In this document: positions 35,089 to 52,890 of the stretch, in pieces
How positions within the stretch are numbered: the stretch's first letter is position 1
How the letters are laid out: the number at the start of each line of letters is the position of its first letter
NCBI RefSeq assembly: GCF_014268755.2
Contig: NZ_CP077093.1
Coordinates: forward strand, 4,824,001-4,888,000
DNA from: Pseudomonas vanderleydeniana
GTDB taxonomy: Bacteria; Pseudomonadota; Gammaproteobacteria; Pseudomonadales; Pseudomonadaceae
Length of the DNA: 64,000 bases
Direction of reading: 5' to 3'
Translations under genes and position numbers: made by a program
The notes under the pieces: model-generated
Told to the model about the DNA's origin: nothing
The model's input: the letters and a program-made list of their open reading frames with translations, nothing else
Databases searched by the model: none

Positions 35089-35364
35089 TCAAGGCAAGCC
35101 GCCCACCTCATGCCCCGGTGCCGGACTGGCCGCCAGGCGTCGCTGGTGCCCCACCATCCGGCGCGTCACGTGGGTCGACAAGGCGGCAATGTCGTCCAGC
35201 AGGCTGCGCGTTTCGCCACGCTCCAGCCTGGCGGTGCGCTCGGTCAGCCCCGAGAGCGTCTTCTCGAAGCGCTTCAGTTCCTCGGCCAGGGCCTGTGCAT
35301 CCGGCCATTGTGCAGCTTGATTCGCAAGGGATGCATGGGTGTGCGGGTATCCATACGGTTTCAA
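35089..35364 (-). CDS. Possible small helical protein of unknown function
   Basis: 91 residues if begun at a TTG at 35364, with no ribosome site seen. From residue 25 on it is rich in Leu, Glu and Arg with an amphipathic, coiled-coil-like pattern ([27 protein letters not shown]), and codon use there is normal for the window, which argues that it is coding. The first 24 residues look less so; a start further in is possible but no ATG is available. It has no recognised family. Confidence 0.35.
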
Positions 35365-35587
35365 GGGCAGGGACAGCGGGGTCCAAGGGTGTGATGAACG
35401 CAGCGCAGGTTCCGGTCACACCCTTGGGCCAAACAGATCCCGGTCCTCGATGAACGAGAACCGGCGCATTCCTTGTCCGCGCCTGCCAGACTCTTGCACC
35501 GGCCTGCCAACGAAGGCGCTTTCGTACAGTTTCCGTTCCCGGCCCGGTAGCCTGCGGCAGTCCAGAACATCGCCGTGGAAACTACCG

Positions 35588-37766: not shown

Positions 37767-39092
37767 TCAGTGGTTGTAGGCCCGCTCGTTGTGCTCGGCC
37801 AGGTCCAGGCCCATCTCCTCGACGTGCTCGTCGGCGCGCAAGCCGACCAGCAGCTTGACGCCCTTGAGAATCACCCAGCTGACGACGAAGCAGTACGCCG
37901 TGGTGAACAGCACGCCCTTGATCTGCGCGACCACCTGCCCGCCGAGGGTCACGCCCTCGACCAGGCCACCCAGCGACGGCACGCAGAACACCCCGGTGAG
38001 CACCGCGCCGATCATGCCGCCGATGCCGTGCAGGCCGAATACGTCCAGGCTGTCGTCGTAACCGAGGCGCTTCTTCAGCACGGTGACGCTCAGGTAGCAG
38101 AACACCCCGCACAGCAGGCCGATCGCCAACGCACCGCCGACACCGACATAGGCACAGGCCGGGGTGATGCCGACCAGGCCGGCCAAGGCACCACTGGCCA
38201 GGCCCAGGGCACTGGGTTTACCGACCTTGAACCACTCGGTGAACATCCAGCCGAGGATGCCGGCGCAGGCCCCCAGCTGGGTGTTGAGCATGACGATGCC
38301 GGACAGGCCGTTGAGGCCGCCGCCGGAACCGATGTTGAAACCGAACCAGCCGACCCAGAGCATCGCCGCACCGGCCATGGTCAGGCTGAGGTTGTGAGCG
38401 GGCATCGGCGCGTTCGCATAGCCCTTGCGCTTGCCCAGCATCAGGCAGGCCGCCAGCGCCGCCACGCCGGCATTGATGTGCACGGCGGTGCCGCCGGCGA
38501 AATCCAGCACGCCCCAGTTGTGCATCAACGCCCCCGCACCGCCCCAGACCATGTGCGCCACCGGTGCGTAGACCAGGGTGAACCAGACGGCCATGAACAG
38601 CAGCGCCGCCGAGAACTTCATGCGTTCGGCGAAGGCACCGGCGATCAGGGCCGGCGTGATGATGGCGAAGGTCATCTGGAAGGTCACGAAGACGCCTTCC
38701 GGGATATCGCCGACCAGGCTTTGCGGGGTCATGCCGGCAAGGAACATCCGGCTCAGCCCGCCGACGAAACTGTTGAAGCTGACCTGCCCCTCGACCATGT
38801 GGGTGGTGTCGACCACCAGGCTGTAGCCGAAGATCACCCACAGCACGCCGACCAGGCCGGCAATGCCGAAACACTGGGTGAACAGCGACAGCATGTTCTT
38901 GGCCCGTACCAGCCCGCCGTAGAACAGCGCCAGCCCGGGCAGGCACATGAACAGCACCAGGATCGCCGCCGTCACCATCCAGGCGGTGCTGCCGGTGTTG
39001 AGGGTCGGGGTCTCGGCCGCCTGGGCCAGGGGAGCGCACGCGCCAAGCGCGAGCACGGCGAGAAGGGATTTGCCGGGTAGACGATTCACCAT
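37767..39092 (-). CDS. amtB: Ammonium/methylammonium transporter
   Basis: 441 residues with a signal peptide (cleavage probable after APLAQA) and 11 hydrophobic segments. Key AmtB residues are present: Asp197 in LDFAGG, the first twin His (His205) in GTAVHIN, the second in LDVFGLHGIGG. There is no glnK beside it, unlike the usual glnK-amtB pair. It lies 265 bases downstream of mgsC on the same strand, the gap holding an intergenic repeat. As the last gene after gmaS-mgsABC it could import methylammonium for that pathway. Confidence 0.94.
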   Translation of the reverse strand: MVNRLPGKSLLAVLALGACAPLAQAAETPTLNTGSTAWMVTAAILVLFMCLPGLALFYGGLVRAKNMLSLFTQCFGIAGLVGVLWVIFGYSLVVDTTHMVEGQVSFNSFVGGLSRMFLAGMTPQSLVGDIPEGVFVTFQMTFAIITPALIAGAFAERMKFSAALLFMAVWFTLVYAPVAHMVWGGAGALMHNWGVLDFAGGTAVHINAGVAALAACLMLGKRKGYANAPMPAHNLSLTMAGAAMLWVGWFGFNIGSGGGLNGLSGIVMLNTQLGACAGILGWMFTEWFKVGKPSALGLASGALAGLVGITPACAYVGVGGALAIGLLCGVFCYLSVTVLKKRLGYDDSLDVFGLHGIGGMIGAVLTGVFCVPSLGGLVEGVTLGGQVVAQIKGVLFTTAYCFVVSWVILKGVKLLVGLRADEHVEEMGLDLAEHNERAYNH

Positions 39093-39220
39093 TTTCGAAG
39101 CTCCTGCAATGAATGGAAAAGTGTCTGGCAGAAAGCGATGTGAAGGTGCATCGGGCCCTGGGGGCCTCTTGTTCTGGTGCTACGCAAACTCTGTAGAGAC
39201 TCTGTTCCCGGTCAAGCTTC

Positions 39221-39327
39221 GATCGTTCCCACGCTCGGCGTGGGAATGCCTCCCAGGACGCTCAGCGTCCGCTCTTGCGACGCAGAGCGCCACGGGCTGC
39301 GTTTCCACGCGGAGCGTGGGAACGATC
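39221..39327. repeat. Palindromic intergenic repeat element
   Basis: A perfect 16-bp inverted repeat, GATCGTTCCCACGCTC (39221-39236) and its complement (39312-39327), encloses further small inverted repeats (GGACGCT/AGCGTCC at 39256-39270). This form is familiar from intergenic spaces of many Pseudomonas genomes. It lies between mgsC and amtB and could stop or stabilise the transcript. Confidence 0.8.
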
Positions 39328-39357
39328 ATCAAAAGAGCCGGTAGCCCCTGTCCGTAC

Positions 39358-40692
39358 CTAGTACTGCTGCCCGGGAATCCACGAGGTCCCGGCCAGCGGC
39401 ACCCGGGCCATGGCGGCGGACTCGACGGTCAAGGCCACCAGGTCCTCGGGATCGAGGTTGTGCAGGTGGGACTTGCCACAAGCCCGGGCCATGGTCTGCG
39501 CCTCCAGTACCAATACACGCAAATAGTTGGCCAACCGGCGCCCGCCCTCGACCGGGTCCAGGCGTTTCGACAGTTCCGGGTCCTGGGTGGTGATACCCGC
39601 CGGGTCGCGACCGTTCTGCCAGTCGTCGTAGAAACCGGCCGCCGAGCCGATCTTCTTCAACTCCTCGTCCAGCCGCGGGTGGTTGTCGCCCAGGGCGATC
39701 AGCGCCGCCGTGCCGATCGCCACCGCATCCGCGCCCAGGGCCATGGCCTTGGCCACGTCGGCACCGTTGCGGATGCCACCGGAGACGATCAGCTGCACCT
39801 TGCGGTGCATGCCCATTTCCTGCAGCGCCTGCACCGCCTGTGGAATCGCCGGCAGAATCGGGATGCCGACATGCTCGATGAACACTTCCTGGGTCGCGGC
39901 GGTGCCGCCCTGCATGCCGTCGAGCACGACCACGTCGGCCCCGGCCTTGACCGCCAGCTTGACGTCGTAATACGGGCGGCTGGCACCGATCTTCACGTAG
40001 ATCGGTTTCTCCCAGTCGGTGATCTCGCGGATCTCGGCGATCTTGATCGCCAGGTCGTCCGGGCCGGTCCAGTCCGGATGACGGCAGGCCGAGCGCTGGT
40101 CGACACCGATCGGCAAGGTGCGCATGCCGGCCACCCGCTCGGTGACCTTCATGCCCAGCAGCATGCCGCCACCGCCCGGCTTGGCGCCCTGCCCCAGGAC
40201 GATCTCGATGGCATCGGCCTTGCGCAGGTCGTCCGGGTTCATGCCGTAGCGCGAGGGCAGGTACTGATAGACCAGGTGCTGCGACTGGCCGCGCTCTTCG
40301 GGTGTCATGCCGCCGTCACCGGTGGTGGTGCTGGTACCGGCGATGGTCGCACCACGGCCCAGGGCTTCCTTGGCGTTGGCCGACAATGCGCCGAAGCTCA
40401 TGCCGGCGATAGTCACGGGGATCTTCAGGTGGATCGGCTTCTTGGCGAAGCGGTTGCCGAGGATCACGTCGGTGCCGCACTTCTCGCGATAGCCTTCCAG
40501 CGGGTAGCGCGAAACGCTGGCGCCGAGCAGCAGCAGGTCATCGAAGTGCGGCAGCTTGCGCTTGGTGCCGCCACCACGGATGTCATAGATGCCGGTTTCG
40601 GCGGCCCGCTGGATTTCCTGGATGGTCAGGCGATCGAAGGTGGCCGACTCACGCAGGACCGGAGCGGTTTTCGGGGTAGTGGATTCACTCAT
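39358..40692 (-). CDS. mgsC: FMN-binding glutamate-synthase-like subunit (N-methylglutamate synthase, MgsC/GlxD)
   Basis: 444 residues. It corresponds to the FMN/iron-sulfur domain of glutamate synthase: the flavin-barrel segments ITIAGMSFGALS, GQGAKPGGGGMLLG, DVVVLDGMQGGTAATQEVFIEHVGIP and LIVSGGIRNGADVAKAMALGADAVAIGTAAL. Known family work shows the three-subunit MgsABC makes N-methylglutamate from gamma-glutamylmethylamide and 2-oxoglutarate. Commonly annotated glxD or FMN-binding glutamate synthase. It is preceded by MgsB (15 bases) and MgsA. Confidence 0.92.
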   Translation of the reverse strand: MSESTTPKTAPVLRESATFDRLTIQEIQRAAETGIYDIRGGGTKRKLPHFDDLLLLGASVSRYPLEGYREKCGTDVILGNRFAKKPIHLKIPVTIAGMSFGALSANAKEALGRGATIAGTSTTTGDGGMTPEERGQSQHLVYQYLPSRYGMNPDDLRKADAIEIVLGQGAKPGGGGMLLGMKVTERVAGMRTLPIGVDQRSACRHPDWTGPDDLAIKIAEIREITDWEKPIYVKIGASRPYYDVKLAVKAGADVVVLDGMQGGTAATQEVFIEHVGIPILPAIPQAVQALQEMGMHRKVQLIVSGGIRNGADVAKAMALGADAVAIGTAALIALGDNHPRLDEELKKIGSAAGFYDDWQNGRDPAGITTQDPELSKRLDPVEGGRRLANYLRVLVLEAQTMARACGKSHLHNLDPEDLVALTVESAAMARVPLAGTSWIPGQQY

Positions 40693-40707
40693 GTTCGGGC
40701 TCCTGGA

Positions 40708-41391
40708 TCAGTACGCGCTGGCGTTGTCGACTTTGAAGTTGTAGAGCTGGCGGGCCGAGCCGTAGCGCTTGAAGTCGCTGGCCTTTTCGTTGAAGCCGGC
40801 CTGGTTCAGCAGGGCCTGCAGTTCCTCGAGGTGTTCGGGGCGCATTTCCTTCTCGATGCAGTCCGAGCCCAGCGACTCGACCTTGCCCTTGACGAAGATC
40901 CTGGTCTCGTAGAGCGAGTCGCCCAGCGCGTCGCCGGCGTCGCCGCACACCACCAGGCGTCCGGCCTGGCCCATGAAGCAGCTCATGTGGCCGATGCTGC
41001 CGCCGACCACGATGTCGATGCCCTTCATCGAGATGCCACAGCGGGCCCCGGCATCGCCCTCGATCACCAGCAGACCGCCGTGGGCCGTGGCGCCTGCGGC
41101 CTGCGAGGCACTGCCCTTGACCCGCACAGAGCCGGACATCATGTTTTCGGCGCAGCCGACACCGACGTTGCCGTGCACGGTGATCGAGGCCTTCTGGTTC
41201 ATGCCCGCGCAGTAGTAGCCGGCGTGTCCCTGGATATCCACGGACACCGCTTCGTTGACGCCCACGGCCAGGTTGTGCGCGCCGTTGGGATGGGTCACCC
41301 GCCATTCGCGCTCGTCGAGTTGCCGGGCCTGGTCGTGCAGGGCCTGGTTCAGCTCACGCACACTGCTGGTGGAAAGATCGATGGTTTTCAT
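40708..41391 (-). CDS. mgsB: GXGXG-domain subunit (N-methylglutamate synthase, MgsB/GlxC)
   Basis: 227 residues forming one right-handed beta helix, with repeats such as GHAGYYCAGMNQKASITVHGNVGVGCAENMMSG broken at regular G-x-x-G-x-G positions. This is the C-terminal domain of glutamate synthase as a free protein. It bridges the amidotransferase (MgsA) and flavin (MgsC) subunits. Spacings to its neighbours are 11 and 15 bases, so the three are co-translated. Confidence 0.93.
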   Translation of the reverse strand: MKTIDLSTSSVRELNQALHDQARQLDEREWRVTHPNGAHNLAVGVNEAVSVDIQGHAGYYCAGMNQKASITVHGNVGVGCAENMMSGSVRVKGSASQAAGATAHGGLLVIEGDAGARCGISMKGIDIVVGGSIGHMSCFMGQAGRLVVCGDAGDALGDSLYETRIFVKGKVESLGSDCIEKEMRPEHLEELQALLNQAGFNEKASDFKRYGSARQLYNFKVDNASAY

Positions 41392-41402
41392 GTGTGTGCT
41401 CC

Positions 41403-42308
41403 TTAAGCCGACTGGCGTTCCCAGATGTACAGGGTGGCGGGGACAGGCTCCCAGACCTTGGCCTTGTCGATGCCCGGCAGGCTCGACAGCGCCTGGTATT
41501 CCGAGGCCATGGCGACGTAGTCGTCGGTTTCGGCGAGGATCGCCGGCTTGCAGGCGATCGGGTCGCGGATCACGGCAAAGCCGTTGCGGGTACCGATGGC
41601 AAAGGTGAAGAAGCCGTCGAGGTCTTCCAGGGACTTGTCCAGCGCGGCCTTGAGCGAGTCGCCCTGTTGCAGGCGCCAGGCCAGGTAGCCGGCCGCCACC
41701 TCGGTGTCGTTCTCGGTCTCGAAGTGGATACCTTCGCGGCGCAGGTTCTGACGCAGGCGCGAATGGTTGGACAGCGAGCCGTTATGCACCAGGCACAGGT
41801 CGGCGCCGGTGGAAAACGGGTGGCTGCCTTCCATGGTCACCGCGCTTTCGGTGGCCATGCGGGTATGGCCGATGATGTGGCTGCCCTTCATCGACGCCAG
41901 GCCGAAACGCTCGGCAATCTCCCTGGGCAGGCCCATGCCCTTGAGGATCTCGATGCTCTGGCCGGCGCTCATGATGCGCACGCCCGGCGCCAGCTCCGCC
42001 AACGCGGCACGGACCACGGCCTCTTCGGCCTGGACCTTGAGGACCATCGCGCTGGCGTTCTGGAACCAGTCCAGGGACGCCGCCAGCCGGCCTTCCAGGG
42101 CCCCGGCCAGGGCCTTGAAGTCGTAGCCTTCGGTGGTTGCCTGCAAGGTCAGCTTGACCCAGCCCTCGCCCACTTCATCGCCATAGATGGCAAAGCCGGC
42201 ACTGTCCGGCCCCCGGTCGGTCATGGCTTCGAGCATCGGCTCGAAGAGTTTGCCGAGCTGGGACTCCAGCGCCGGATTCTTCAGGTAAAGCCCTACAATT
42301 CCACACAT
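41403..42308 (-). CDS. mgsA: Class II glutamine-amidotransferase-like subunit (N-methylglutamate synthase, MgsA/GlxB)
   Basis: 301 residues. After Met1 is Cys2 (MCGIVGLYL), the N-terminal nucleophile of class II amidotransferases, with the supporting motifs RGPDSAGFAIYG, GHTRMATES and VHNGSLSNHSRLR. In this pathway it releases methylamine-derived nitrogen from gamma-glutamylmethylamide and passes it on to the synthase subunits. It is 73 bases downstream of gmaS, with a hairpin between. Confidence 0.93.
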   Translation of the reverse strand: MCGIVGLYLKNPALESQLGKLFEPMLEAMTDRGPDSAGFAIYGDEVGEGWVKLTLQATTEGYDFKALAGALEGRLAASLDWFQNASAMVLKVQAEEAVVRAALAELAPGVRIMSAGQSIEILKGMGLPREIAERFGLASMKGSHIIGHTRMATESAVTMEGSHPFSTGADLCLVHNGSLSNHSRLRQNLRREGIHFETENDTEVAAGYLAWRLQQGDSLKAALDKSLEDLDGFFTFAIGTRNGFAVIRDPIACKPAILAETDDYVAMASEYQALSSLPGIDKAKVWEPVPATLYIWERQSA

Positions 42309-42329
42309 ATCGCAAACTCCTGGGCAGAA

Positions 42330-42355
42330 GACGCCCTACCCCTGGGCAGGGCGTC
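42330..42355 (-). terminator. Hairpin between gmaS and mgsA
   Basis: GACGCCCT (42330-42337) and AGGGCGTC (42348-42355) form an 8-bp stem with inner CCC/GGG pairing. Only a weak T-run follows on the minus strand, so partial termination or transcript-end protection is more likely than a full stop. Confidence 0.45.
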
Positions 42356-42381
42356 GGAAACGGTTGGTCAAGACGGGTGGA

Positions 42382-43716
42382 TCAGAAAAACTCGGTGTAG
42401 CGCTGCACTTCCCAATCGCTCACATGGCGGCTGTACTCCACCCACTCCATGCGCTTGAGCTTGATGAACTCGCCGACGATCTCCGGGCCCAGCACTTCGG
42501 CGAACAGCGGATCGACCTCCAGCGCATCGCAGGCTTCCTTGAGCGACTGCGGCAGGGTCCTGATGCCGCGGGCGGCGATCTCCTCCAGGCTCAGCTTGTA
42601 GAGGTTCTCGTTGCAGACGTTGTCGATTTCCAGCTTGCGGTCGATGCCATCCAGGCCTGCGGCGATGATCGCGGCGCTGACCAGGTACGGGTTGCAACCG
42701 GCATCCGGCAGGCGGAATTCCAGGCGGCCATAGGGCACGCGGACCATGGCCGAACGGTTGTTGGCACCGAAGGCGATGAACGCCGGAGCCCAGGTGGCGC
42801 CGGACAGCGAGTTGCCGACCACCAGGCGCTTGTAGGAGTTGACCGTGGGCGCGGCGAACGCACACAGCGCCGGGCCGTGGGCCAGCAACCCCGCGGCGAA
42901 GTGATAGGCCAGCTTCGACAGGCCCATGCCGCTCGGGTCGCCAGCATCGTGAAACAGGTTCTTGTTGGTCGCGCTGCTGATCGACAGGTGGAAATGCATG
43001 CCGTTGCCCGCACGCTTGGGATCGGGCTTGGGCATGAACGAACAGATCATGCCCATGTCGTTGGCGATCTCGCCGGCAGCCATGCGGAAGAAGGTGAAGC
43101 GGTCCGCCGATTCCATGGCATCGCTGTAGGTGTAGTTGATCTCGAACTGGCCGTTGGCGTCCTCATGGTCGATCTGGTAGATATCGAAGCCCACCGGCTG
43201 CAGGGCTTCGGTCAGGCGCTCGAGGAACTCGCGCGAACGCGACAGGCCCTTGTAGTCGTAGCAGGGCTTGTCCAGGGCATCGCTGGCGTCGACCAGTTGC
43301 AGCGCCCCGCTGGCGTCACGGCGGAACAGGCTGAACTCGGGTTCGAGCCCGGTGTTGAGCGTCCAGCCACGATCGCTCAGGCGCTCGACCTGGCGTTGCA
43401 GCACGTAGCGGCTGTCGTAGGGCCAGGGCTTGCCGTCGACGTGACCGATGCACACAACCCGGCCGTAGCCTTTCTGCCAGGGTACCGGCGTCAGCGAAGA
43501 CAAATCGCCCCGGGCCATGAAATCCGGGCCGTGGGGCTCCATGCCCATGCCACAGATGGCAAACCCGGCGAAACCCGCACCCTCTTGCGCAACCATCTCC
43601 AGGCCCGAGACCGGCACCGATTTGGTCTTGGACGAACCGTGGATATCGACGAACTGAGCCAGCACGTATTTGATCCCGTGCTCCTCGATCAGCCGCTGTG
43701 TTTCGGGTGGCAACAT
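42382..43716 (-). CDS. gmaS: Gamma-glutamylmethylamide synthetase / type III glutamine synthetase
   Basis: 444 residues, matching GmaS (444) rather than GlnA (about 469). Glutamine-synthetase fold: the N-terminal beta-grasp, then [15 protein letters not shown] (metal Glu), [22 protein letters not shown] (His), NSYKRLVVG and [21 protein letters not shown]. In the N-methylglutamate pathway it joins methylamine to glutamate with ATP. It is often annotated type III glutamate-ammonia ligase (GlnT). It is the first gene of the minus-strand operon; a sigma-54 promoter and two copies of a palindromic motif lie upstream. Confidence 0.9.
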
Positions 43717-43770
43717 GAGCGTTCACTCCTGGCGAAAGGCAAGACGTTGTGGTTGAAAGCGTCGTTTCGC

Positions 43771-43820
43771 TTCCTGACCAGAACTTATTCCAATCAGGAA
43801 ACTTACTTTCCCAATAGGAA
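43771..43820. promoter_or_regulatory. Tandem TTCC-N5-GGAA sites before gmaS
   Basis: TTCCAATCAGGAA (43788-43800) and TTCCCAATAGGAA (43808-43820) are 20 bp apart, two helical turns. A weaker third copy, TTCCTGACCAGAA, starts at 43771. They lie at and just downstream of the predicted transcription start of gmaS, a repressor position. The same motif occurs before purU (44790). The bound protein is probably the XRE-cupin or IclR regulator, which I cannot decide. Confidence 0.65.
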
Positions 43821-43821
43821 T

Positions 43822-43837
43822 GCAATGGCCTTGCCAA
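43822..43837 (-). promoter_or_regulatory. Sigma-54 promoter of gmaS
   Basis: On the minus strand the sequence reads TTGGCAAGGCCATTGCA. GG and GC are exactly 10 bases apart as in the -24/-12 consensus TGGCAC-N5-TTGC. It lies about 106 bases upstream of the gmaS start. This implies control by an enhancer-binding protein, most simply NtrC. Confidence 0.7.
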
Positions 43838-43949
43838 GTTTGTCGATCAGGGTCACCAGGACCGCGATTGCGGCATTTCCTCTGTATATATGGGAAACTC
43901 GTTTTCACCGAGGGAATAATCCAGCGCCGATCGAACAGCCGGAGCCTCT

Positions 43950-43970
43950 TTCGCACATTCCTGGTGCGAA
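43950..43970. promoter_or_regulatory. Inverted repeat before the XRE-cupin gene
   Basis: TTCGCAC (43950-43956) and GTGCGAA (43964-43970) are a perfect 7-bp repeat with a 7-base spacer, 35 bases upstream of the XRE-cupin start. It may be the regulator's own operator or a hairpin in the 5' leader. Confidence 0.5.
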
Positions 43971-44004
43971 TTTAAAATTATTGAACGGAAACCGTGCAAA
44001 GCCG

Positions 44005-44610
44005 ATGAACACGCCTGACGAAGTACAACCCAAGCTCAAGCTCGAGCAGTACCTGGGCATCCAGATCAAGCGCCAGCGCCAGGCCCAGGAATTGAAACTG
44101 GCCGACGTGGCGCGCATCGCCGGCATCAGCCAGGGCATGTTGAGCAAGATCGAGAACGCCCAGGTGTCCACCAGCCTGGATATCCTCAGCCGCCTGTGCG
44201 ACGTGCTCGGCATGCCGATGTCCAAGCTGTTCAGCCAGTACGACCAGCAAGGCGGCAGCGCGCTGCTGGTCAAGCGCGACGAAGGGCTGGAGGTGGTGCG
44301 CCGCGGTACCGAGAAGGGCCATACCTACCACCTGCTCAACCACACCCGCGGGCCGAAGAAGAGCTTCGAGGCGTACATGGTGACCATGGACGACGCCAGC
44401 GAGGAGTTCCCGACCTTCTCCCACCCCGGCACCGAGTTCCTGCACCTGCTCGAAGGCGAACTGGTCTACCGCCACGGCAACCAGCTGTACCCGATGGAGG
44501 CCGGCGACAGCCTGACCTTCGATGGCGAGATTCCCCATGGTCCGGAGAAGCTGGTACAGGTGCCGATCCGCCTGCTGTCGATCATGAACTACGGGACCTC
44601 GGGAGAGTAG
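44005..44610 (+). CDS. XRE-family regulator with C-terminal cupin domain
   Basis: 201 residues from the ATG at 44005; the long upstream open frame is the back of gmaS. Helix-turn-helix in about residues 17-72 (GIQIKRQRQAQELKLADVARIAGISQGMLSKIENAQVSTSLDILSRLCDVLG) and a cupin barrel in about 115-190 (FSHPGTEFLHLLEGELVYRHGNQLYPMEAGDSLTFDGEIPHGPE). Such proteins repress amine, polyamine or amino-acid catabolic genes and are released by a ligand bound to the cupin. It is divergent from gmaS and stands before purU, so it is well placed to control both arms of the pathway. Confidence 0.92.
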   Translation: MNTPDEVQPKLKLEQYLGIQIKRQRQAQELKLADVARIAGISQGMLSKIENAQVSTSLDILSRLCDVLGMPMSKLFSQYDQQGGSALLVKRDEGLEVVRRGTEKGHTYHLLNHTRGPKKSFEAYMVTMDDASEEFPTFSHPGTEFLHLLEGELVYRHGNQLYPMEAGDSLTFDGEIPHGPEKLVQVPIRLLSIMNYGTSGE

Positions 44611-44629
44611 AACCGGCCCCGCCCCCACC

Positions 44630-44689
44630 TGCCCGCGATGCCCTGGGCGTCACACCACGACGACGCCTGACACGCCGCCATCGCGGGCA
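44630..44689. repeat. Long imperfect palindrome (REP-like) after the XRE-cupin gene
   Basis: TGCCCGCGATG (44630-44640) and CATCGCGGGCA (44679-44689) are perfect 11-bp arms. Inside, GGCGTC (44646) and GACGCC (44661) pair as well. It could be a REP-type element or serve as a terminator without a T-run between the regulator and purU. Confidence 0.55.
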
Positions 44690-44789
44690 CGCCCTTCCCC
44701 GCAAAAAATTCCCACCAGTTAAAAAAGTTTCCAGAAACGCTGGACGCGCGATTTCCTTTCGCCTATAAAACCGCAAAAAGAATATTTAA

Positions 44790-44802
44790 TTCCCCACAGG
44801 AA
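44790..44802. promoter_or_regulatory. TTCC-N5-GGAA site before purU
   Basis: TTCCCCACAGGAA repeats the motif found twice before gmaS. It lies 82 bases before the purU start in an AT-rich stretch. A weaker copy begins at 44709 and a short palindrome GTTTC-CA-GAAAC is at 44727. Confidence 0.55.
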
Positions 44803-44883
44803 TTTTTATTCACCAACAAAATCGCCATTCGCCCCTGAATTTCGCCTTGCGCCGAGCTGCCGCCACTCTCCAGAGGACATGCC

Positions 44884-45750
44884 ATGCAACACGAAAAGAA
44901 CCATTTCATTCTCAAGATCAGCTGTCCGGCGACCTCCGGCATCGTCGCGGCGGTGACCTCGTACCTGGCCGGAAACGGCTGCTACATCGGGGAAATGGCG
45001 CAGTTCGACGACGACTTCAGCGGCAAGTTCTTCATGCGCGCGGTGTTCCGTTTCAACGACGGCCACCCGGGCGATATCGACACGCTCAAGGCTGGCTTCA
45101 ACGACGTCGCCCGGGCCTTCGACATGCACTGGGAACTGCACGACACCCGTCAGCCGATGCGCGTGCTGCTGATGGTCAGCAAGTTCGACCACTGCCTCAC
45201 CGACCTGCTGTACCGCTACCACAAGGGCGAGATGGACATGATCATCACCGCCATCGTTTCCAACCACCTGGACCTGCGGCCCATGGCCGAACGCGAGGGC
45301 ATCCGCTTCATCTACCTGCCGGTGACCCGCGAAACCAAGGCCCAGCAGGAAGCCGCGCTGATGAAGGTGGTCGATGAAACCGGCACCGAACTGGTGGTGC
45401 TCGCCCGCTACATGCAGATCCTCTCGGACGACCTGTGCAAGCAACTCTCGGGCCGGGCAATCAACATCCACCATTCGTTCCTGCCCGGCTTCAAGGGCGC
45501 CAAGCCCTATCACCAGGCCTACGAGCGCGGCGTGAAGCTGATCGGGGCCACCGCGCACTACGTGACGAGCGACCTCGACGAGGGGCCGATCATCGAGCAG
45601 GAAGTGCAACGGGTCGACCATGTGTACCTGCCGGATGACCTGGTCGCCACCGGGCGCGACACCGAGACCGTGGCCCTGTCCAAGGCGGTGAAGTACCACC
45701 TGGAACACCGCGTCTTCCTCAACAACGACAGAACGGTGATCTTCCGGTGA
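44884..45750 (+). CDS. purU: Formyltetrahydrofolate deformylase
   Basis: 288 residues. An N-terminal ACT domain (about 7-85, [26 protein letters not shown]) and a formyltransferase-fold domain with [21 protein letters not shown] and [13 protein letters not shown], holding the catalytic Asn, His and Asp. It splits 10-formyl-tetrahydrofolate into formate and tetrahydrofolate. Here it should drain the one-carbon unit set free from the methyl group. It is the first gene of the plus-strand operon, overlapping folD by GTGA. AGAGGA precedes the ATG. Confidence 0.95.
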
Positions 45751-46652
45751 ATACCTCCAAACTGATCGATGGCAAGGCCGCGGCGGCGCGGGTGCTGGCC
45801 CAGGTCAAGGCCGACGTCCAGGCGCTGAAACAGGCCGGCGTCGAACCGGCGCTCGCCGTGATCCTGGTCGGCCAGGACCCGGCCAGCCAGGTCTATGTGC
45901 GCAACAAGATCCTGCGCGCCGAGGAAGCCGGGATCCGTTCGCTGGAATACCGCCTCAGCGCCGACACCAGCCAGGCGCTGCTGCTCAACCTGATTGGCGA
46001 ATTGAACGAGGACGCCAGCGTCAACGGCATCCTGCTGCAACTGCCGCTCCCGGCCCATATCGAGGAGACCCGCGCCCTGCAGGCGATTGCACCGGGCAAG
46101 GATGTCGACGGCTTCCACAGTGAGAACGTCGGAGGCCTGAGCCAGGGTCGCGACGTGCTGACGCCCTGCACCCCCAGCGGCTGCATGCAGTTGCTCCAGG
46201 ACGCCTGCGGTGACCTGAGCGGCAAGCACGCGGTGGTGATCGGCCGCTCGAACATCGTCGGCAAGCCCATGGCCGCCCTGCTGCTCAAGGCCCATTGCTC
46301 GGTCACCGTGGTCCACTCGCGCAGCGTCGATGCGAAAGCCCTGTGCCGCCAGGCCGACATCGTGGTCGCGGCCGTCGGCCGCCCGCGCCTGATCGATGCC
46401 GGCTGGCTCAAGCCCGGCGCAGTGGTGATCGATGTCGGCATCAACCGCATCGATGACGACGGCCGCAGCCGCCTGGTCGGCGACGTCGACTTCGACAGCG
46501 CCCTGCCCCAGGTCTCGGCCATCACCCCCGTACCCGGTGGCGTCGGCCCGATGACCATCGCCTTCCTGATGAAGAACACGGTGACCGCTGCCGTTCAGCA
46601 GGCCCACGCACAACGCAGTCACCTGGAGGCCCTATGCCATTCCATCTATTGA
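45747..46652 (+). CDS. folD: Methylenetetrahydrofolate dehydrogenase/cyclohydrolase
   Basis: 301 residues from a GTG that overlaps the purU stop. Motifs: [14 protein letters not shown] (catalytic Tyr and Lys), [33 protein letters not shown] and [16 protein letters not shown]. It turns 5,10-methylene-THF into 10-formyl-THF, making NADPH. Being in this operon instead of alone, it is likely a second, pathway-specific copy of FolD. It overlaps the start of the next gene by 19 bases. Confidence 0.95.
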
Positions 46653-47875
46653 AATACGGACTCGGTTCGCAATACCCGGTAGAGGTCGACCTGCCCGCGC
46701 CGAAGGAACTCAAGCCGTCCTACGACGTGGTGATCATCGGCGGTGGCGGCCATGGCCTGGCCACCGCCTACTACCTCTCGAAGTACCACGGCATCACCAA
46801 CATCGCGGTGCTGGAAAAGGGCTACCTGGGTGGCGGCAACACCGCGCGCAACACGGCGGTGATCCGCTCCAACTACCTGACCAGCGAAGGCGTGCGCTTC
46901 TATGCCGAGTCGGTACGGATGTTCGAGGGTCTGTCCAACGAGTTCGACTTCAACATCATGTACTCCCATCGCGGCCAGCTGACCCTGGCCCACACCGATG
47001 CAACCGTGCGTTCGTTCCGCCAGCGCGCCGAGGTCAACAAGCATTTCGGCGGGCGTACCGAAATGATCGACCGCCAGCAGATCCGCGAGTTGGTGCCGAC
47101 GCTCAACCTCGATCCCGGCCACCTGCCGGTGCTCGCCGGCCTGTGGCACATCGACGGTGCCACCGCCCGCCACGACGCGGTGGCCTGGGGTTATGCCAAG
47201 CAGGCCGCCAAGCGGGGCGTGGAGATCCACCCGCTCACCGAGGTCCAGGAACTGGTCATCGAGCACGGCACGATCACCGCAGTGAAGACCAACCGCGGCA
47301 CCATCCGTTGCGGCTGCGCGGTACAGGCCGTGGCCGGCATGAGTTCGCAACTGATGAAAAAGGCCGGCATCCGCTCGCCGATCCAGACCTTCCCGCTGCA
47401 GGCCATGGTCACCCAACCGTTCAAGCCATTCCTCGACCCGCTGGTGAGCTCCTCGGCCCTGCACTGCTACGTGCAGCAGACCAGCCGTGGCGAGGTGGTG
47501 TTCGGGGGGGGCTCCGACCCGTATCCGCTGTTCAACACCCGCTCGACCCTGGACCTGAAGGAAAGCCTGCTGGCCCACGCCATCGAGATGTTCCCCTTCC
47601 TGGCCAACGCCAAGCTGATGCGCCAGTGGGCCGGGATCACCGACATGACCCCGGACTACAGCCCGATCATGGGCCTGTCGCCGGTGAAGAACTACTACCT
47701 GGACGCCGGCTGGGGCACCTGGGGCTTCAAGGCCACGCCGATCTGCGGCAAGACCATGGCCGAGCTGGTCGCCAGCGGCGGAAAGGTACCGGAACTGATC
47801 AGGCCGTTCGGTCTCGAGCGCTTCTCCACCTTCCAGCAAGTCAACGAAATGGGCGCGACAGCGGCCAGCCACTGA
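46634..47875 (+). CDS. mgdA: N-methylglutamate dehydrogenase / sarcosine oxidase beta-type subunit
   Basis: 413 residues, homologous to SoxB. The FAD motif [20 protein letters not shown] is at 31-50; [16 protein letters not shown] is near 175-190, and His172 stands about where the beta subunit binds FMN covalently (inferred from position). The C-terminus has [33 protein letters not shown]. It would oxidise the N-methyl group of N-methylglutamate or sarcosine. Which one is not fixed by the sequence; the gmaS-mgsABC operon next door favours N-methylglutamate. Confidence 0.9.
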
Positions 47876-47885
47876 GGAGCGGAAC

Positions 47886-48191
47886 ATGAAAGTGATGAAT
47901 TGCCCGCTCAACGGGCCGCGCAACATCAGCGAATTCACCTACGGCGGCGAGTTCAAGCGGATGCCCGACCCACAGGCCTGCAGCGATGCGCAATGGGCCG
48001 ACTACGTGTTCAACAGCGAAGACACCCTCGGCGTGGTCCGCGAATGGTGGATGCACAACCCGTCCAGCTACTGGTTCCTGGCCGAACGTCATACCGGCAG
48101 CGACGAGATCCTGCGCACGTTCGACCCCCGGGAACTGTTCGACACCCGCATTGAATTCACTGCCGCGACCACCCAGGAGACCGTGCGATGA
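47886..48191 (+). CDS. mgdB: N-methylglutamate dehydrogenase / sarcosine oxidase delta-type subunit
   Basis: 101 residues, homologous to SoxD: opening MNCPLNGPRNISEFTYGGE, later EWWMHNPSSYWFLAERH and EILRTFDPREL. In sarcosine oxidase the delta subunit holds zinc through Cys6, Cys9, His59 and Cys63. Here Cys6 and His57 are kept, but Cys9 is Asn and the last Cys is Ser61, so the zinc site appears lost. It lies between the beta and alpha genes and overlaps the alpha gene by ATGA. Confidence 0.9.
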   Translation: MKVMNCPLNGPRNISEFTYGGEFKRMPDPQACSDAQWADYVFNSEDTLGVVREWWMHNPSSYWFLAERHTGSDEILRTFDPRELFDTRIEFTAATTQETVR

Positions 48192-51085
48192 ACCGCCTCC
48201 CCGTACCCATGGGCCTGCTGATCGACCGCAGCCAACCGCTCGACTTCAGCTTCGATGGCCAGTCCTACCAGGGGTTCGCCGGCGACAGCATCGCCAGCGC
48301 GCTGCTCGCCAATGGCCGCTTCCTGTTGTCGCGCTCGTTCAAGTACCACCGTCCGCGTGGCCCGCTGACCATGGCGGGACAGGACGCCAACACCCTGGTG
48401 CAACTGCCGCGCGAACCGAATGTGCTGGCCGATACTCACCTGCTGGAACACGGTGTGCAGGTGACCGGACAGAATTTCAACGGCTCGCTGGACAATGACC
48501 GCGACGCCTACCTCGGCAAGTTCTCCAGGTTCATGCCGGTGGGCTTCTACTACCGCTCCTTCTACAAGCCCCGGGGCGCCTGGAAGCTGTGGGAGCCGAT
48601 CATCCGCAGGAAGGCCGGCCTGGGTGTGCTCGACCTGACGTTCCAGCCGGAGTACTACGACAAGGCCTACCTGTTCACCGACCTTGCCGTGATCGGGGCC
48701 GGCCCGGCCGGCCTGCAGGCGGCCCTGACCGCCGCCAATGCCGGGGCCAGGGTCCTGCTGATCGAGCAACAGCCGATCCTCGGTGGCTCGCTGACCTACG
48801 CCCGCTTCGACCTCGAGGGCCAGCGGGCCGAGCAGTTGCGCCGGGAGCTGGTCGATGCGGTGGAAAATCACGCCAACATCCGCGTGCTGAAAAAGGCCAC
48901 CTGCAACGCCTGGTTCACCGACAACTACCTGCCGGTGATCCAGGGCAAGCGCCTGTACAAGGTCCGCGCCACCCAGTGCCTGATCGCCAGCGGCTCGTTC
49001 GACCAGCCGGTGATCTTCCGCAACAACGACCTGCCCGGGGTGATGCTCAGCAGCGCCGCGCAACGCCTGATGAAACTGTATGCGGTCAAGCCGGGCCAAC
49101 GCGCCGTGGTCCTGACCGGCAACGACGACGGCTACCTCGCCGCGCTGGACCTGAGCGAGCAGGGTGTCGAGGTTGCCGCGCTGGTCGACATGCGCCCCCA
49201 CCCGGCCCGTCGCGAGTGGCTGCTGGCCCTGGAAAAGCGCGGCATTGCCTGCCACGCCGGCAGCACCGTGTACGAGGCCCTGCACGAGAAAGGCCTGCGC
49301 CATGTCAGCGGCGTCGACATCCGCGCCATCACCGGCCAAGGCCAGGTCGCGGCACAGGGGCAGATCCTGGCCTGCGACCTGTTGTGCATGTCCGGCGGCT
49401 ACATGCCGGTCTACCAACTGCTGTGCCAGGCCGGCGGCAAGCTGGCCTACGACGACCAACTGGCGGAGTTCACCCTCAGCGGCCTGCCGCAGAACCTGCG
49501 CGTCGCCGGTTCCGCCCATGGCTACCACGCGCTGGACAACGTGCTGGCCGATGCCATCGACGCGGCGGCGCAGATCGTCACCGCGCTGAACCTGGACCCC
49601 GTCGCCAAACCGCTGCCGCTGCGCAGTGAGGCCCCGGTCAACTTCCCCTGGCCGATCTTCCCGCACCCCAAGGGCAAGGACTTCGTCGACTTCGATGAGG
49701 ACCTACAGGTGCGCGACATCATCAACGCCACCCGCATCGGCTACCGCGACGTGCAACTGGTCAAGCGCTTCTCCACGGTCGGCATGGGCCCCTCCCAGGG
49801 CCGTCACTCGGCCCTGCCGACGGCACGCCTGGTGGCCGCCTCCACCCAGCGCAGCGTCAGCGAGACCGGCGTGACCACCGCCCGGCCTCCGTTCGAGGCG
49901 GAAAAACTGGCCCATGTCGCCGGCCGCGCCTTCGACCCGTACCGGCAGACACCGATGCACCAGCGCCACCTGGACGCCGGGGCGAAGATGATGCCGGCCG
50001 GGATCTGGCAGCGTCCGGCCTATTACGGCAAGCCCAGCCAGCGTGACGCCTGCATGCAGGCCGAGGCGCTGCATGTGCGCAACAAGGTCGGCATCATCGA
50101 CGTCTCGACCCTCGGCGGCCTGGACGTCCGTGGCCCGGACGCCGCCGAACTGCTCAACCGGATGTACACCTTCGCCTTCCTCAAGCAGCCGGTGGGCCGC
50201 TCGCGTTATGCGCTGATGACCAACGAACACGGCGTGGTAATCGACGACGGCGTCTGCGCGCGCTTCGCCGACAACCACTTCTACGTGACCGCCACCACCA
50301 GCGGCGTGGACCGTATCTACCAGCAGATGCTCAAGTGGAATGCCCAATGGCGGCTGGACGTCGACATTGCCAACGTCACCGCAGCAATTTCTGCGGTCAA
50401 CGTGGCCGGGCCGGACTCACGCAAGGTGCTGGAAAAAGTCTGCAGCGACCTCGACCTGTCGGCCGAAGGTTTCCCCTACCTGGCCGTGCGCCAGGGGACC
50501 GTGGCCGGGATCAAGGCCCGCCTGCTGCGGGTCGGCTTCGTCGGCGAGTTGGGCTATGAGATCCACGTCCCGGCCCGCCATGCGCTGCAACTGTGGGATG
50601 CGCTGATGGCAGCCGGCAAGGCCCACGACATTCGCCCGTTCGGCGTCGAGACCCAACGCCTGCTGCGCCTGGAAAAAGGCCACGTGATCATCAGCCAGGA
50701 CACCGACGGCATGACCCACCCGGCCGAGATCGACATGGGTTGGGCGGTCAGCCGCAACAAGCCGTTCTTTGTCGGCCGCCGCTCGGTGGACATCCTCGAA
50801 GCCCAGCCGCAGAAACGCAAGCTGGTCGGTTTCACCCTGCCCAAGGGCAGCCCGCAGCCGCTGGAAGGCCATCTGGTGCTCAAGGGCCCGGACATCAGCG
50901 GCAACGTGACCTCTTGCGAATACTCGCAGACCCTCGACCGGATCATCGGCCTGGCCTATGCCGCCTTCGACCAGTCCACGCCGGGGCAACGGCTACCGAT
51001 CCGGGTCGAGGGCGGCGTGATCGTCCAGGCCACGGTGGTGAAGCTGCCGTTCTTCGACCCTGAAAACCAGCGCCAGGAGCTCTGA
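48188..51085 (+). CDS. mgdC: N-methylglutamate dehydrogenase / sarcosine oxidase alpha-type subunit
   Basis: 965 residues, the usual size (about 965). Order: N-terminal Fer2_4-like domain (15-100, GDSIASALLANGRFLLSRSFKYHRP, without iron-sulfur Cys), NAD/FAD Rossmann domain (GAGPAG at 170-175), the connecting domain with DLQVRDIINATRIGYRDVQLVKRFSTVGMGPSQG, and a C-terminal aminomethyltransferase (GcvT-like) domain that binds tetrahydrofolate (QKRKLVGFTLPKGSPQPLEG). It should catch the methylene group on folate. The next operon genes, folD and purU, then process it. Confidence 0.92.
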   Translation: MNRLPVPMGLLIDRSQPLDFSFDGQSYQGFAGDSIASALLANGRFLLSRSFKYHRPRGPLTMAGQDANTLVQLPREPNVLADTHLLEHGVQVTGQNFNGSLDNDRDAYLGKFSRFMPVGFYYRSFYKPRGAWKLWEPIIRRKAGLGVLDLTFQPEYYDKAYLFTDLAVIGAGPAGLQAALTAANAGARVLLIEQQPILGGSLTYARFDLEGQRAEQLRRELVDAVENHANIRVLKKATCNAWFTDNYLPVIQGKRLYKVRATQCLIASGSFDQPVIFRNNDLPGVMLSSAAQRLMKLYAVKPGQRAVVLTGNDDGYLAALDLSEQGVEVAALVDMRPHPARREWLLALEKRGIACHAGSTVYEALHEKGLRHVSGVDIRAITGQGQVAAQGQILACDLLCMSGGYMPVYQLLCQAGGKLAYDDQLAEFTLSGLPQNLRVAGSAHGYHALDNVLADAIDAAAQIVTALNLDPVAKPLPLRSEAPVNFPWPIFPHPKGKDFVDFDEDLQVRDIINATRIGYRDVQLVKRFSTVGMGPSQGRHSALPTARLVAASTQRSVSETGVTTARPPFEAEKLAHVAGRAFDPYRQTPMHQRHLDAGAKMMPAGIWQRPAYYGKPSQRDACMQAEALHVRNKVGIIDVSTLGGLDVRGPDAAELLNRMYTFAFLKQPVGRSRYALMTNEHGVVIDDGVCARFADNHFYVTATTSGVDRIYQQMLKWNAQWRLDVDIANVTAAISAVNVAGPDSRKVLEKVCSDLDLSAEGFPYLAVRQGTVAGIKARLLRVGFVGELGYEIHVPARHALQLWDALMAAGKAHDIRPFGVETQRLLRLEKGHVIISQDTDGMTHPAEIDMGWAVSRNKPFFVGRRSVDILEAQPQKRKLVGFTLPKGSPQPLEGHLVLKGPDISGNVTSCEYSQTLDRIIGLAYAAFDQSTPGQRLPIRVEGGVIVQATVVKLPFFDPENQRQEL

Positions 51086-51086
51086 C

Positions 51087-51689
51087 ATGTCCAGCCTCAT
51101 TACCGAACGTCCCATCGCGGCTGCCCGGCACCCGGACGGCGTACCCGCGCAATGCACCCTGGTCGACCTGACCGACCTGCCGCGGGTCGGCTTTCGTGGC
51201 CCCCACAGCGCGGCCTACCTGCAGGCCCGCGGTTTCAGGCTGCCCGAGGCGCCCAACCGCGCCATCACCCAGGACGACGGCAGCCACGTGGCGCGCCTGT
51301 CGCAGACCGAGTACCTGCTGCTGGGCAGCCTCGCTGACCGTGGCGAGCGCATTGCCCACGAAGAGGCCCGCTGGGCGCTGGACCACAGCGCCAACTACCT
51401 GCTGCCGCGCCAGGACAGTCACGCCTGGCTGCAGTTGAGCGGCGTGTGCATCGCCGAGGTCATGGCCAAGCTCTGTGGCGTCGACCTGCGTGCCCAGGCC
51501 TTCGCGCCGGGGGCCGTGGCCCAGACCTCGGCGGCGCGGATCAACGTGATCGTGGTCAACCTCGGCGGCGACGCCCAGCCGACCTTCCAGATCCTCTGCG
51601 ACCGCGCTTCGCTGGCGTACTTCAGGGACGCCGTCCTCGACGCCATGGCCGAGTTCGATGGGCAACTGTCGAGCCTGGACGCCTTGTAG
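51087..51689 (+). CDS. mgdD: N-methylglutamate dehydrogenase / sarcosine oxidase gamma-type subunit
   Basis: 200 residues, SoxG family: VDLTDLPRVGFRGPHSAAYLQARGF, GSHVARLSQTEYLLLG, QLSGVCIAEVMAKLCGVDL and ARINVIVVNLGGD. It completes the four-subunit enzyme. It begins one base after the alpha stop, so it is translationally coupled. A strong hairpin follows before the IclR gene. Confidence 0.92.
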   Translation: MSSLITERPIAAARHPDGVPAQCTLVDLTDLPRVGFRGPHSAAYLQARGFRLPEAPNRAITQDDGSHVARLSQTEYLLLGSLADRGERIAHEEARWALDHSANYLLPRQDSHAWLQLSGVCIAEVMAKLCGVDLRAQAFAPGAVAQTSAARINVIVVNLGGDAQPTFQILCDRASLAYFRDAVLDAMAEFDGQLSSLDAL

Positions 51690-51696
51690 CCATCGT

Positions 51697-51724
51697 CCCC
51701 TGTGGGTGCCCGAACCCACAGGGG
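51697..51724 (+). terminator. Hairpin between mgdD and iclR-type gene
   Basis: CCCCTGTGGGT (51697-51707) pairs perfectly with ACCCACAGGGG (51714-51724) across a 6-base loop. There is no T-run. It may reduce read-through into the regulator gene or protect the end of the long operon transcript. Confidence 0.55.
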
Positions 51725-51743
51725 CAAGCAGGAGGAATGCCCC

Positions 51744-52523
51744 ATGAACCTGCCTGAAACGCTCGATCGGGACACCGACTACCGCGTCCCCGCCCTCGCC
51801 CGCGGCCTGGGCGTGCTGGGCATGTTCAGCGCCCGCACCCGCAGCCTGAGCATGCAGGAGATCGCGGCACAGTTGGGGGTCACCCCCTCGGCGGTGTATC
51901 GCATCCTGTTCACGCTGACCGACATGGGTTACCTGAACAAGCGCAACAACCAATACGAACTGGGTGCCCGGGTAATCAGCGACGGCTTCAGCTACCTGGC
52001 CAGCCGCGACATCGTCGAAGTGGCGATGCCCCATCTGAACGAGCTGCGCGACCGCACCTCGCTGTCCTGTCACCTGAGCATCCGCGAGCAGACCGACAGC
52101 CTGTACCTCTACCGGGCGTTCGCCGCGCAGCGCCTGTCCGTGAACATCCCGATAGGCACCCGAATCCCCTGCCATTGCACGGCGATGGGCCGGGTCCTGC
52201 TGACGGGTCTGGGGACTGCGCAGATCGCCGCGCTGTACCAGCAGGTACGCCTGGACGACTACCCCAGCCCGGCGCCACGCACCTTGCCGGCGCTGCTGCA
52301 GATGGTCGAGCAGGACCGCCAGCAGGCCGTGCTGCTGCATCGCTCCGACTACTCCACCGCCATCGCCACCGGCCTGCGCGATCATCAGGGCCAGGTGACG
52401 GCAGCCATCAACCTGTCCGGCCCGGATGCGGTGATGGATTCGGCGGACGCTCGCCTGGACTTCGAACGACTGCTGCGGGCCTGCGCGCAGGCGATCAGCC
52501 TGGAACTCGGCTACCAGCCGTAG
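51744..52523 (+). CDS. IclR-family transcriptional regulator
   Basis: 259 residues from the ATG at 51744 with AGGAGGA upstream. The winged helix-turn-helix (RVPALARGLGVLGMFSARTRSLSMQEIAAQLGVTPSAVYRILFTL) and the GAF-like effector domain (GTRIPCHCTAMGRVLLTGL) are complete. It is the last gene of the plus-strand methylamine cluster, so it is a second candidate controller of it. Confidence 0.92.
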   Translation: MNLPETLDRDTDYRVPALARGLGVLGMFSARTRSLSMQEIAAQLGVTPSAVYRILFTLTDMGYLNKRNNQYELGARVISDGFSYLASRDIVEVAMPHLNELRDRTSLSCHLSIREQTDSLYLYRAFAAQRLSVNIPIGTRIPCHCTAMGRVLLTGLGTAQIAALYQQVRLDDYPSPAPRTLPALLQMVEQDRQQAVLLHRSDYSTAIATGLRDHQGQVTAAINLSGPDAVMDSADARLDFERLLRACAQAISLELGYQP

Positions 52524-52664: not shown

Positions 52665-52890
52665 GGCTGAAGTGATAAGGCGAAGGATTCGCCCGTTCAA
52701 TATCCCACTTGGCGAAAGTTATCCAAATCGCTCTTTCGATCGCTAACGTATTCATTTCAGATTTGTAATGCCCGAGTCACTCCGCCGTTATCCGGGACTC
52801 GTCAGTATTGGGCGTACTGGCAACTTTCGGTACTACAAAAAGGCCAGGTCGAACGTCTACAAGAAATCTGCCGATTCGAACGGAGCGCAC
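52665..52890. other. Upstream region of the OprD-type gene
   Basis: 226 bases without a gene. It holds an inverted repeat CAGTA-N7-TACTG at 52803-52819 and GAGTC/GACTC near 52775-52800. These could be regulator sites; nothing firm can be said. Confidence 0.35.

Follow-up and report, generated by a model that had tools for sequence, protein, structure and literature searches.

A complete set of N-methylglutamate pathway genes in Pseudomonas vanderleydeniana, with conserved promoter sites that suggest control by nitrogen and by substrate

The N-methylglutamate pathway of methylamine use is already known in Pseudomonas. Pseudomonas sp. C5pp carries it as two operons, gmas-mgsABC-amt and purU-folD-mgdABCD, and can rely on methylamine as its only source of nitrogen (Kamini et al. 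2018, as reported in the review PMC8292978). Here we describe the corresponding locus of Pseudomonas vanderleydeniana, which lies within a 64,000-nucleotide stretch of its 7.03 Mb, single-contig genome (contig NZ_CP077093.1, positions 4,824,001 to 4,888,000; hereafter the window). According to the review, the two C5pp operons hold the same genes in the same order as those of the window, but they lie 37.7 kb apart, whereas the operons of the window are divergent neighbours flanking the gene of an XRE-cupin regulator. Methyloversatilis universalis FAM5 (PMC5023235) and Methylobacterium extorquens DM4 (PMC6237917) share gmaS, mgsABC and mgdABCD with the window, in DM4 likewise as two adjacent divergent operons. 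Both are described for methylotrophic carbon use, and the portions of these papers available to us do not name folD or purU with the operons. In DM4, gmaS is reported to be needed for methylamine as a carbon source and not as a nitrogen source (PMC6237917). P. putida KT2440 is reported to have no homologues of GMAS and NMGS (PMC6237917). Ruegeria pomeroyi DSS-3 has the same enzymes, with one regulator, TmaR, for both its gmaS-mgsABC and mgdABCD operons (PMC13390433). TmaR of this and other marine bacteria is an AraC-type activator, whereas the window has an XRE-cupin protein, a predicted repressor, together with sigma-54-type and NtrC-like sites.

We consider it very probable (roughly 0.9) that the N-methylglutamate pathway of the window is complete and serves chiefly to supply nitrogen from methylamine, its reactions being assigned from family biochemistry and its regulation from conserved DNA. 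Genes were assigned to families by hmmscan with Pfam and NCBIfam models. An earlier note on this DNA had proposed a full gene set on two divergent strands and had expected standard annotation to hide it. Both points hold: between positions 37,767 and 52,523 all named pathway genes are present as intact frames, with gmaS, mgsABC and mgdABCD forming a full set, and the records read glnT or type III glutamate-ammonia ligase and FAD-dependent oxidoreductase. The minus strand carries gmaS-mgsA-mgsB-mgsC followed by amtB, and the plus strand carries purU-folD-mgdA-mgdB-mgdC-mgdD-iclR. Genes inside the operons overlap or are separated by 1-73 bp (by 1-12 bp or overlaps on the plus strand), with the exception of a 265-bp gap ahead of amtB.

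In the proposed scheme, which follows PMC6237917 and PMC8292978 as far as these describe it, GmaS would join glutamate and methylamine to gamma-glutamylmethylamide at the expense of ATP, and the GOGAT-like MgsABC would convert this product, with 2-oxoglutarate and reductant, to N-methylglutamate and glutamate. MgdABCD would oxidise the N-methyl carbon onto tetrahydrofolate (THF) and free glutamate; the predicted product of the dehydrogenase is methylene-THF in one account (PMC5023235) and formaldehyde in another (PMC6237917). FolD and PurU would carry the one-carbon unit to formate, which could be oxidised by the genome's formate dehydrogenase (encoded at 1.40 Mb and above its cut-off), and nitrogen would enter as glutamate. 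The methylamine dehydrogenase light chain had no match, but a match was equally lacking in 14 control genomes, and its absence is therefore not shown.

The closest solved relative of GmaS is a glutamate-methylamine ligase (PDB 9qur, 652 bits across residues 5-444), followed by the GmaS of Rhodovulum (7cql, 318 bits); the best PDB entry named glutamine synthetase reaches 251 bits. By pairwise alignment, all eight RhGmaS residues checked (K30, A48, Y174, D177, E186, W300, R312 and R317; numbering of PMC7948447) are identical in the window protein. Asp177, Glu186 and Arg312 are described as strictly conserved in GmaS, and Trp300 and Ala48 stand where glutamine synthetase has Glu and Asp (PMC7948447). 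TIGR03105 has nine matches in the genome, and the window GmaS alone lies above its cut-off. An ordinary glutamine synthetase was rejected, the best match being a glutamate-methylamine ligase and the methylamine-type residues being kept. The enzyme is common, since a protein search gave at least 7981 relatives at E 1e-60 or better among 8000 candidates scored.

MgdABCD shares its four-subunit architecture and a folate-binding domain with sarcosine oxidase, SoxBDAG. The beta, alpha and gamma chains of the window all score below the NCBIfam soxB, soxA and soxG cut-offs (Table 1), a comparison that covers these three chains, the delta chain having been scanned against Pfam only. A second locus, glyA-soxB-soxD-soxA-soxG-purU-fdhA at about 6.68 Mb, encodes seven proteins that each exceed a cut-off, whereas the mgd genes have no glyA neighbour. 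Trees built from 22 beta and from 21 alpha chains placed gmaS-linked rows and sox rows on opposite sides of one branch with 100/100 support, although the label Mgd in these trees denotes linkage to gmaS and, as a point against our assignment, no biochemically characterised N-methylglutamate dehydrogenase (NMGDH/Mgd) is among the rows. The solved TSOX chain 2gag falls with the sox rows of the beta tree; Phaeobacter SoxA forms a long branch, and the MgdC sequences of Azoarcus and P. oryzihabitans are incomplete. Plasmid rows from Mesorhizobium, Paracoccus, Ruegeria and Kovacikia, whose examined stretches contain no gmaS, group on the Mgd-like side, the larger of the two, and this side may therefore not be confined to enzymes of methylamine use. 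MgdC-like enzymes without gmaS nearby occur beside amidase/threonine dehydratase or trimethylamine-methyltransferase-like genes (L153 and L155), and these likely act on other N-methyl substrates.

The delta chains differ at positions that we take to be zinc ligands, four in number. Where the sarcosine oxidase delta chain has C-x2-C ... H ... C, MgdB of the window reads CPLNG and H..SS. In the alignment, two of the four presumed ligand positions are lost in 16 of 17 Mgd-like rows, Acidithiobacillus caldus keeping them, and are kept in three of four sox rows, Phaeobacter having lost them. Loss of these two presumed ligands is a quick marker for telling MgdB from SoxD, to which each side of the tree has one exception. 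The genome's own SoxD (L015:10684-11019) keeps both positions that MgdB lost. The identity of GmaS and the separation of the four-subunit enzyme from true sarcosine oxidase, both put forward in the earlier note along with a check for a separate sox locus, are borne out by these data.

To describe the distribution of the pathway, we used 199 genomes of the genus and defined orthologues by at least 85% identity for GmaS and at least 88% for MgdA. GmaS matches of 40-45% (G147, G133, G023 and the second match of G085) and SoxB-like MgdA matches were excluded before counting, and the partial GmaS match of G080 was counted. GmaS orthologues occur in 47 genomes, MgdA orthologues in the identical 47, and neither in the remaining 152. 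The MgdA search gave some match in 190 genomes; in 143 of the 152 without gmaS this match was weaker (best E about 1e-104 to 1e-110, with 43-44% identity among the matches listed), and the genome's own SoxB is likewise 43-44% identical to MgdA. The two genes lie within 10 kb of each other in 31 of the 47 genomes (32 if G051 is circular). A single contig holds them at a greater distance in 7 or 8 genomes, and another 8 have them on different contigs, which in some cases may reflect assembly breaks. The two genes are thus distant or on separate contigs in about 15 genomes. The script count was 16, and 15 is safer because the two places in G051 are at the two ends of one contig and are probably neighbours across the circular start. 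Exact co-occurrence therefore holds even where neighbourhood cannot explain it, which argues that the gmaS and mgd modules belong together, and the pair is a clean marker for the pathway. About a quarter of the sampled genus carries the route, and since its genes bear names such as glnT and FAD-dependent oxidoreductase, methylamine nitrogen supply in pseudomonads is easily overlooked. One genome, G065 (C1), has two copies of both gmaS and mgdA.

A scan of named genomes covered the best 80 loci, mostly from Pseudomonas, to which all counts of named loci refer. An XRE gene stands divergent beside gmaS in 74 of them; the six without it are Zoogloeaceae and Azoarcus metagenome-assembled genome loci (L017-L022), several of them short. 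MgsC beside gmaS is 89-100% identical in the loci that extend that far. An mgdA match is present in 51 loci, and some of the other 29 end early, which is no evidence of absence. The closest named locus is that of P. fuscovaginae (L060), with GmaS 97.7% and XRE 99.5% identical. The locus is not a chance arrangement, because its order recurs in dozens of named loci and GmaS and MgdA co-occur in the same genomes of the genus. GmaS and MgdC matches were also found on 20 Acinetobacter plasmids. On one Acinetobacter plasmid (L160), mgdABCD stands beside genes annotated as PDR/VanB oxidoreductase, DUF3445, aminomethyltransferase and PII protein, which resemble a dimethylamine monooxygenase set. The megaplasmid mpAca1.1 of Acidithiobacillus caldus (L152) carries in one stretch genes for XRE, purU, mgdABC-like proteins, glnT, an amidotransferase, glxC, an FMN glutamate-synthase-like protein and folD, and the XRE gene beside purU is 58% identical to that of the window.

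The spacer between gmaS and xre was aligned for the window and 74 named loci, and the counts in these 75 spacers were compared with shuffled controls, which overstate independence because the loci share descent. The sigma-54-type pattern TGGCA-N6/7-TTGC occurs in 75/75 spacers (shuffled mean 0.3, largest 3), the NtrC-like pattern GCAC-N7-GTGC in 58 (mean 0.2, largest 3), and at least one copy of the predicted operator TTCC-N5-GGAA in 67 (mean 0.2, largest 2). Two operator copies 20 bp apart were found in 31 spacers and in no shuffled set. The gmaS promoter fits GG-N10-GC and the upstream site fits GC-N11-GC, in agreement with the sigma-54 consensus and NtrC-site spacing given in PMC5491218 and PMC8443478. 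In the 65 spacers with an exact operator copy after the promoter, the first such copy comes 16, 36 or 37 bases past the promoter's first base (36, 13 and 16 spacers), so that the operator would lie over or just behind the expected transcription start. Across the 199 genomes, the exact tandem palindrome with 20-bp spacing occurs in 15, all within the 47, in one place each and no more than 150 bp from the gmaS start; it is missing in 32 of the 47, and the reversed tandem pattern, used as a control, had no match genus-wide.

The predicted operator recurs ahead of purU. Where purU lies near xre, it is exact in 14 of 38 regions (window included) and present with at most one mismatch in 30. In each of three loci whose purU follows xre at a distance of some kilobases (L149-L151), a site with one mismatch is present. 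Detached purU operons have the site at one mismatch in 12 of the 13 covered, those of G048, G051, G080 and G179 being left out. The window regulator has a helix-turn-helix and a cupin domain with a palindromic motif at the neighbouring operon, and palindromic motifs are described for Pseudomonas XRE-cupin regulators (PMC7901475). The conserved promoter sites suggest that the pathway is induced when nitrogen runs short, with a small repressor keeping it silent as long as substrate is lacking. From this conserved DNA we infer that a sigma-54 promoter, accompanied by an NtrC-like site, drives gmaS and that the XRE-cupin protein may repress both operons through the predicted TTCC-N5-GGAA sites, from which the genes under the pathway's regulator can be predicted. 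More specifically, we lean slightly towards an unreported two-input switch in which NtrC and sigma-54 would activate gmaS under nitrogen shortage, and the XRE-cupin repressor, seated on the tandem operator over the start site and at purU, would be released only by bound methylamine or an adduct. Among the titles and abstract openings listed, none concerned control of gmaS by an XRE-cupin protein or by NtrC in Pseudomonas, although the original C5pp paper could contain it, and the terms methylamine, glnT and glxB are absent from the main text of PMC7901475. As far as the literature searched shows, the predicted regulation of gmaS by these sites is new.

Several observations weigh against this switch. 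The exact NtrC-like site was not found in 17 of the 75 gmaS spacers nor the exact operator in 8, and all three Acinetobacter loci are without both. At purU, 8 of the 38 regions near xre have no operator even at one mismatch, and the 13 detached operons include none with an exact copy and one (L146) that lacks the site at this tolerance too. No sigma-54 or NtrC pattern was found in any of 67 purU upstream regions. An ntrC mutant of P. stutzeri A1501 is reported with more, not less, metabolic activity on methylamine (PMC8443478), and one of B. cenocepacia H111 grew better, not worse (PMC5491218). These phenotypes would argue against a simple NtrC requirement if these strains carry this promoter. 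AraC-type TmaR is also reported in a strain named Pseudomonas sp. GX19020 (PMC13390433).

The operator sites might instead be bound by the IclR protein or by some other factor, which we regard as unlikely. In favour of this alternative, the iclR gene closes the mgd operon, and binding of the XRE-cupin protein to the sites is a prediction. However, XRE adjoins gmaS in nearly all named loci, whereas of the 41 loci that have mgdD, 30 carry an IclR match next to it; in the other 11, some of which may end too early, there is none, and so IclR is probably accessory. The P. fuscovaginae locus has the operator sites and a nearly identical XRE protein, with no IclR match within 2 kb past mgdD.

That the plus-strand operon encodes an ordinary heterotetrameric sarcosine oxidase, next to a separate glutamine synthetase/glutamate synthase set on the minus strand, appears extremely improbable. 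Such an enzyme was rejected on the sox cut-offs, which the window chains miss and the separate sox locus exceeds, and on the 100/100 split of both trees, despite the distant kinship of the alpha, beta and delta chains to solved TSOX chains and despite soxB, soxA and soxG being the best hidden Markov model names for the window chains. The window type of mgdA also tracks gmaS, genomes without gmaS having at most the weaker match, and GmaS is without the ammonia residues of glutamine synthetase. The same chemistry could serve a different small amine, or an N-methylated amino acid that enters the route at another point, as is conceivable from MgdC relatives with no gmaS within 6 kb in other catabolic settings (Mesorhizobium and Ruegeria plasmids) and from a mention of Mgd in homarine breakdown (PMC13390433). 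We hold this to be very unlikely, given that gmaS and mgdA never occur one without the other in the 199 genomes and that the closest solved GmaS is a glutamate-methylamine ligase. Still less probable is methylotrophy, with methylamine as carbon and energy source: the FolD and PurU of the operon would route carbon to formate, gmaS carries the sigma-54-type promoter and NtrC-like site, and C5pp reportedly obtains its nitrogen from methylamine alone (PMC8292978), even though the same enzymes support methylotrophy in Methyloversatilis and Methylobacterium (PMC5023235, PMC6237917). Use of methylamine mainly for nitrogen remains the reading that we prefer, and the features of the locus are collected in Table 1.

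Table 1. Genes and predicted sites of the N-methylglutamate pathway locus (window positions).
Feature	Position	Strand	Basis
amtB-type ammonium/methylammonium channel	37767..39092	-	TIGR00836 430 bits (cut-off 343), PF00909
mgsC, FMN subunit of N-methylglutamate synthase, glutamate-synthase fold	39358..40692	-	PF01645 303 bits
mgsB, GXGXG subunit	40708..41391	-	PF01493
mgsA, class II amidotransferase subunit, N-terminus Met-Cys	41403..42308	-	PF13522/PF13537, sequence
gmaS, gamma-glutamylmethylamide synthetase	42382..43716	-	PDB 9qur match, RhGmaS residues, TIGR03105
Predicted operator, distal copy, TTCC-N5-GGAA	43788..43800	.	conserved motif
Predicted operator, promoter-proximal copy, TTCC-N5-GGAA, 20 bp from distal copy	43808..43820	.	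conserved motif
Candidate sigma-54-type -24/-12 promoter of gmaS, TGGCA-N6-TTGC	43822..43836	-	75/75 aligned spacers
NtrC-like site, GCAC-N7-GTGC	43953..43967	.	58/75 spacers
XRE-cupin regulator, predicted repressor of both operons	44005..44610	+	PF01381 + PF07883; adjoins gmaS in 74/80 named loci
Predicted operator ahead of purU	44790..44802	.	TTCC-N5-GGAA half-sites
purU, formyl-THF deformylase	44884..45750	+	TIGR00655 324 bits (cut-off 286)
folD, methylene-THF dehydrogenase/cyclohydrolase	45747..46652	+	NF010790 594 bits (cut-off 508)
mgdA, beta-type subunit of N-methylglutamate dehydrogenase	46634..47875	+	soxB model 456 bits, below cut-off 529; tree
mgdB, delta-type subunit	47886..48191	+	PF04267; alignment, 2/4 presumed Zn-ligand positions gone
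mgdC, alpha-type subunit with folate-binding GCV_T domain	48188..51085	+	PF01571 256 bits; soxA model 873, below cut-off 1164; tree
mgdD, gamma-type subunit	51087..51689	+	soxG model 37 bits, below cut-off 144
IclR-family regulator, probably accessory	51702..52523	+	PF01614/PF09339

Two further genes adjoin the locus. An OprD-family porin gene (52768-54216, plus strand) directly follows the IclR gene, and its product is a possible uptake partner; the 80 named loci include one with a match (L057, 32%), and many of them stop short of that place. On the other side, a gene for a methyl-accepting chemotaxis protein (35339-37729, plus strand) ends beside amtB, and the protein might sense the amine. 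Relatives of it (64-71%) lie near the gmaS operon in L033, L047, L073, L089, L093 and L096.

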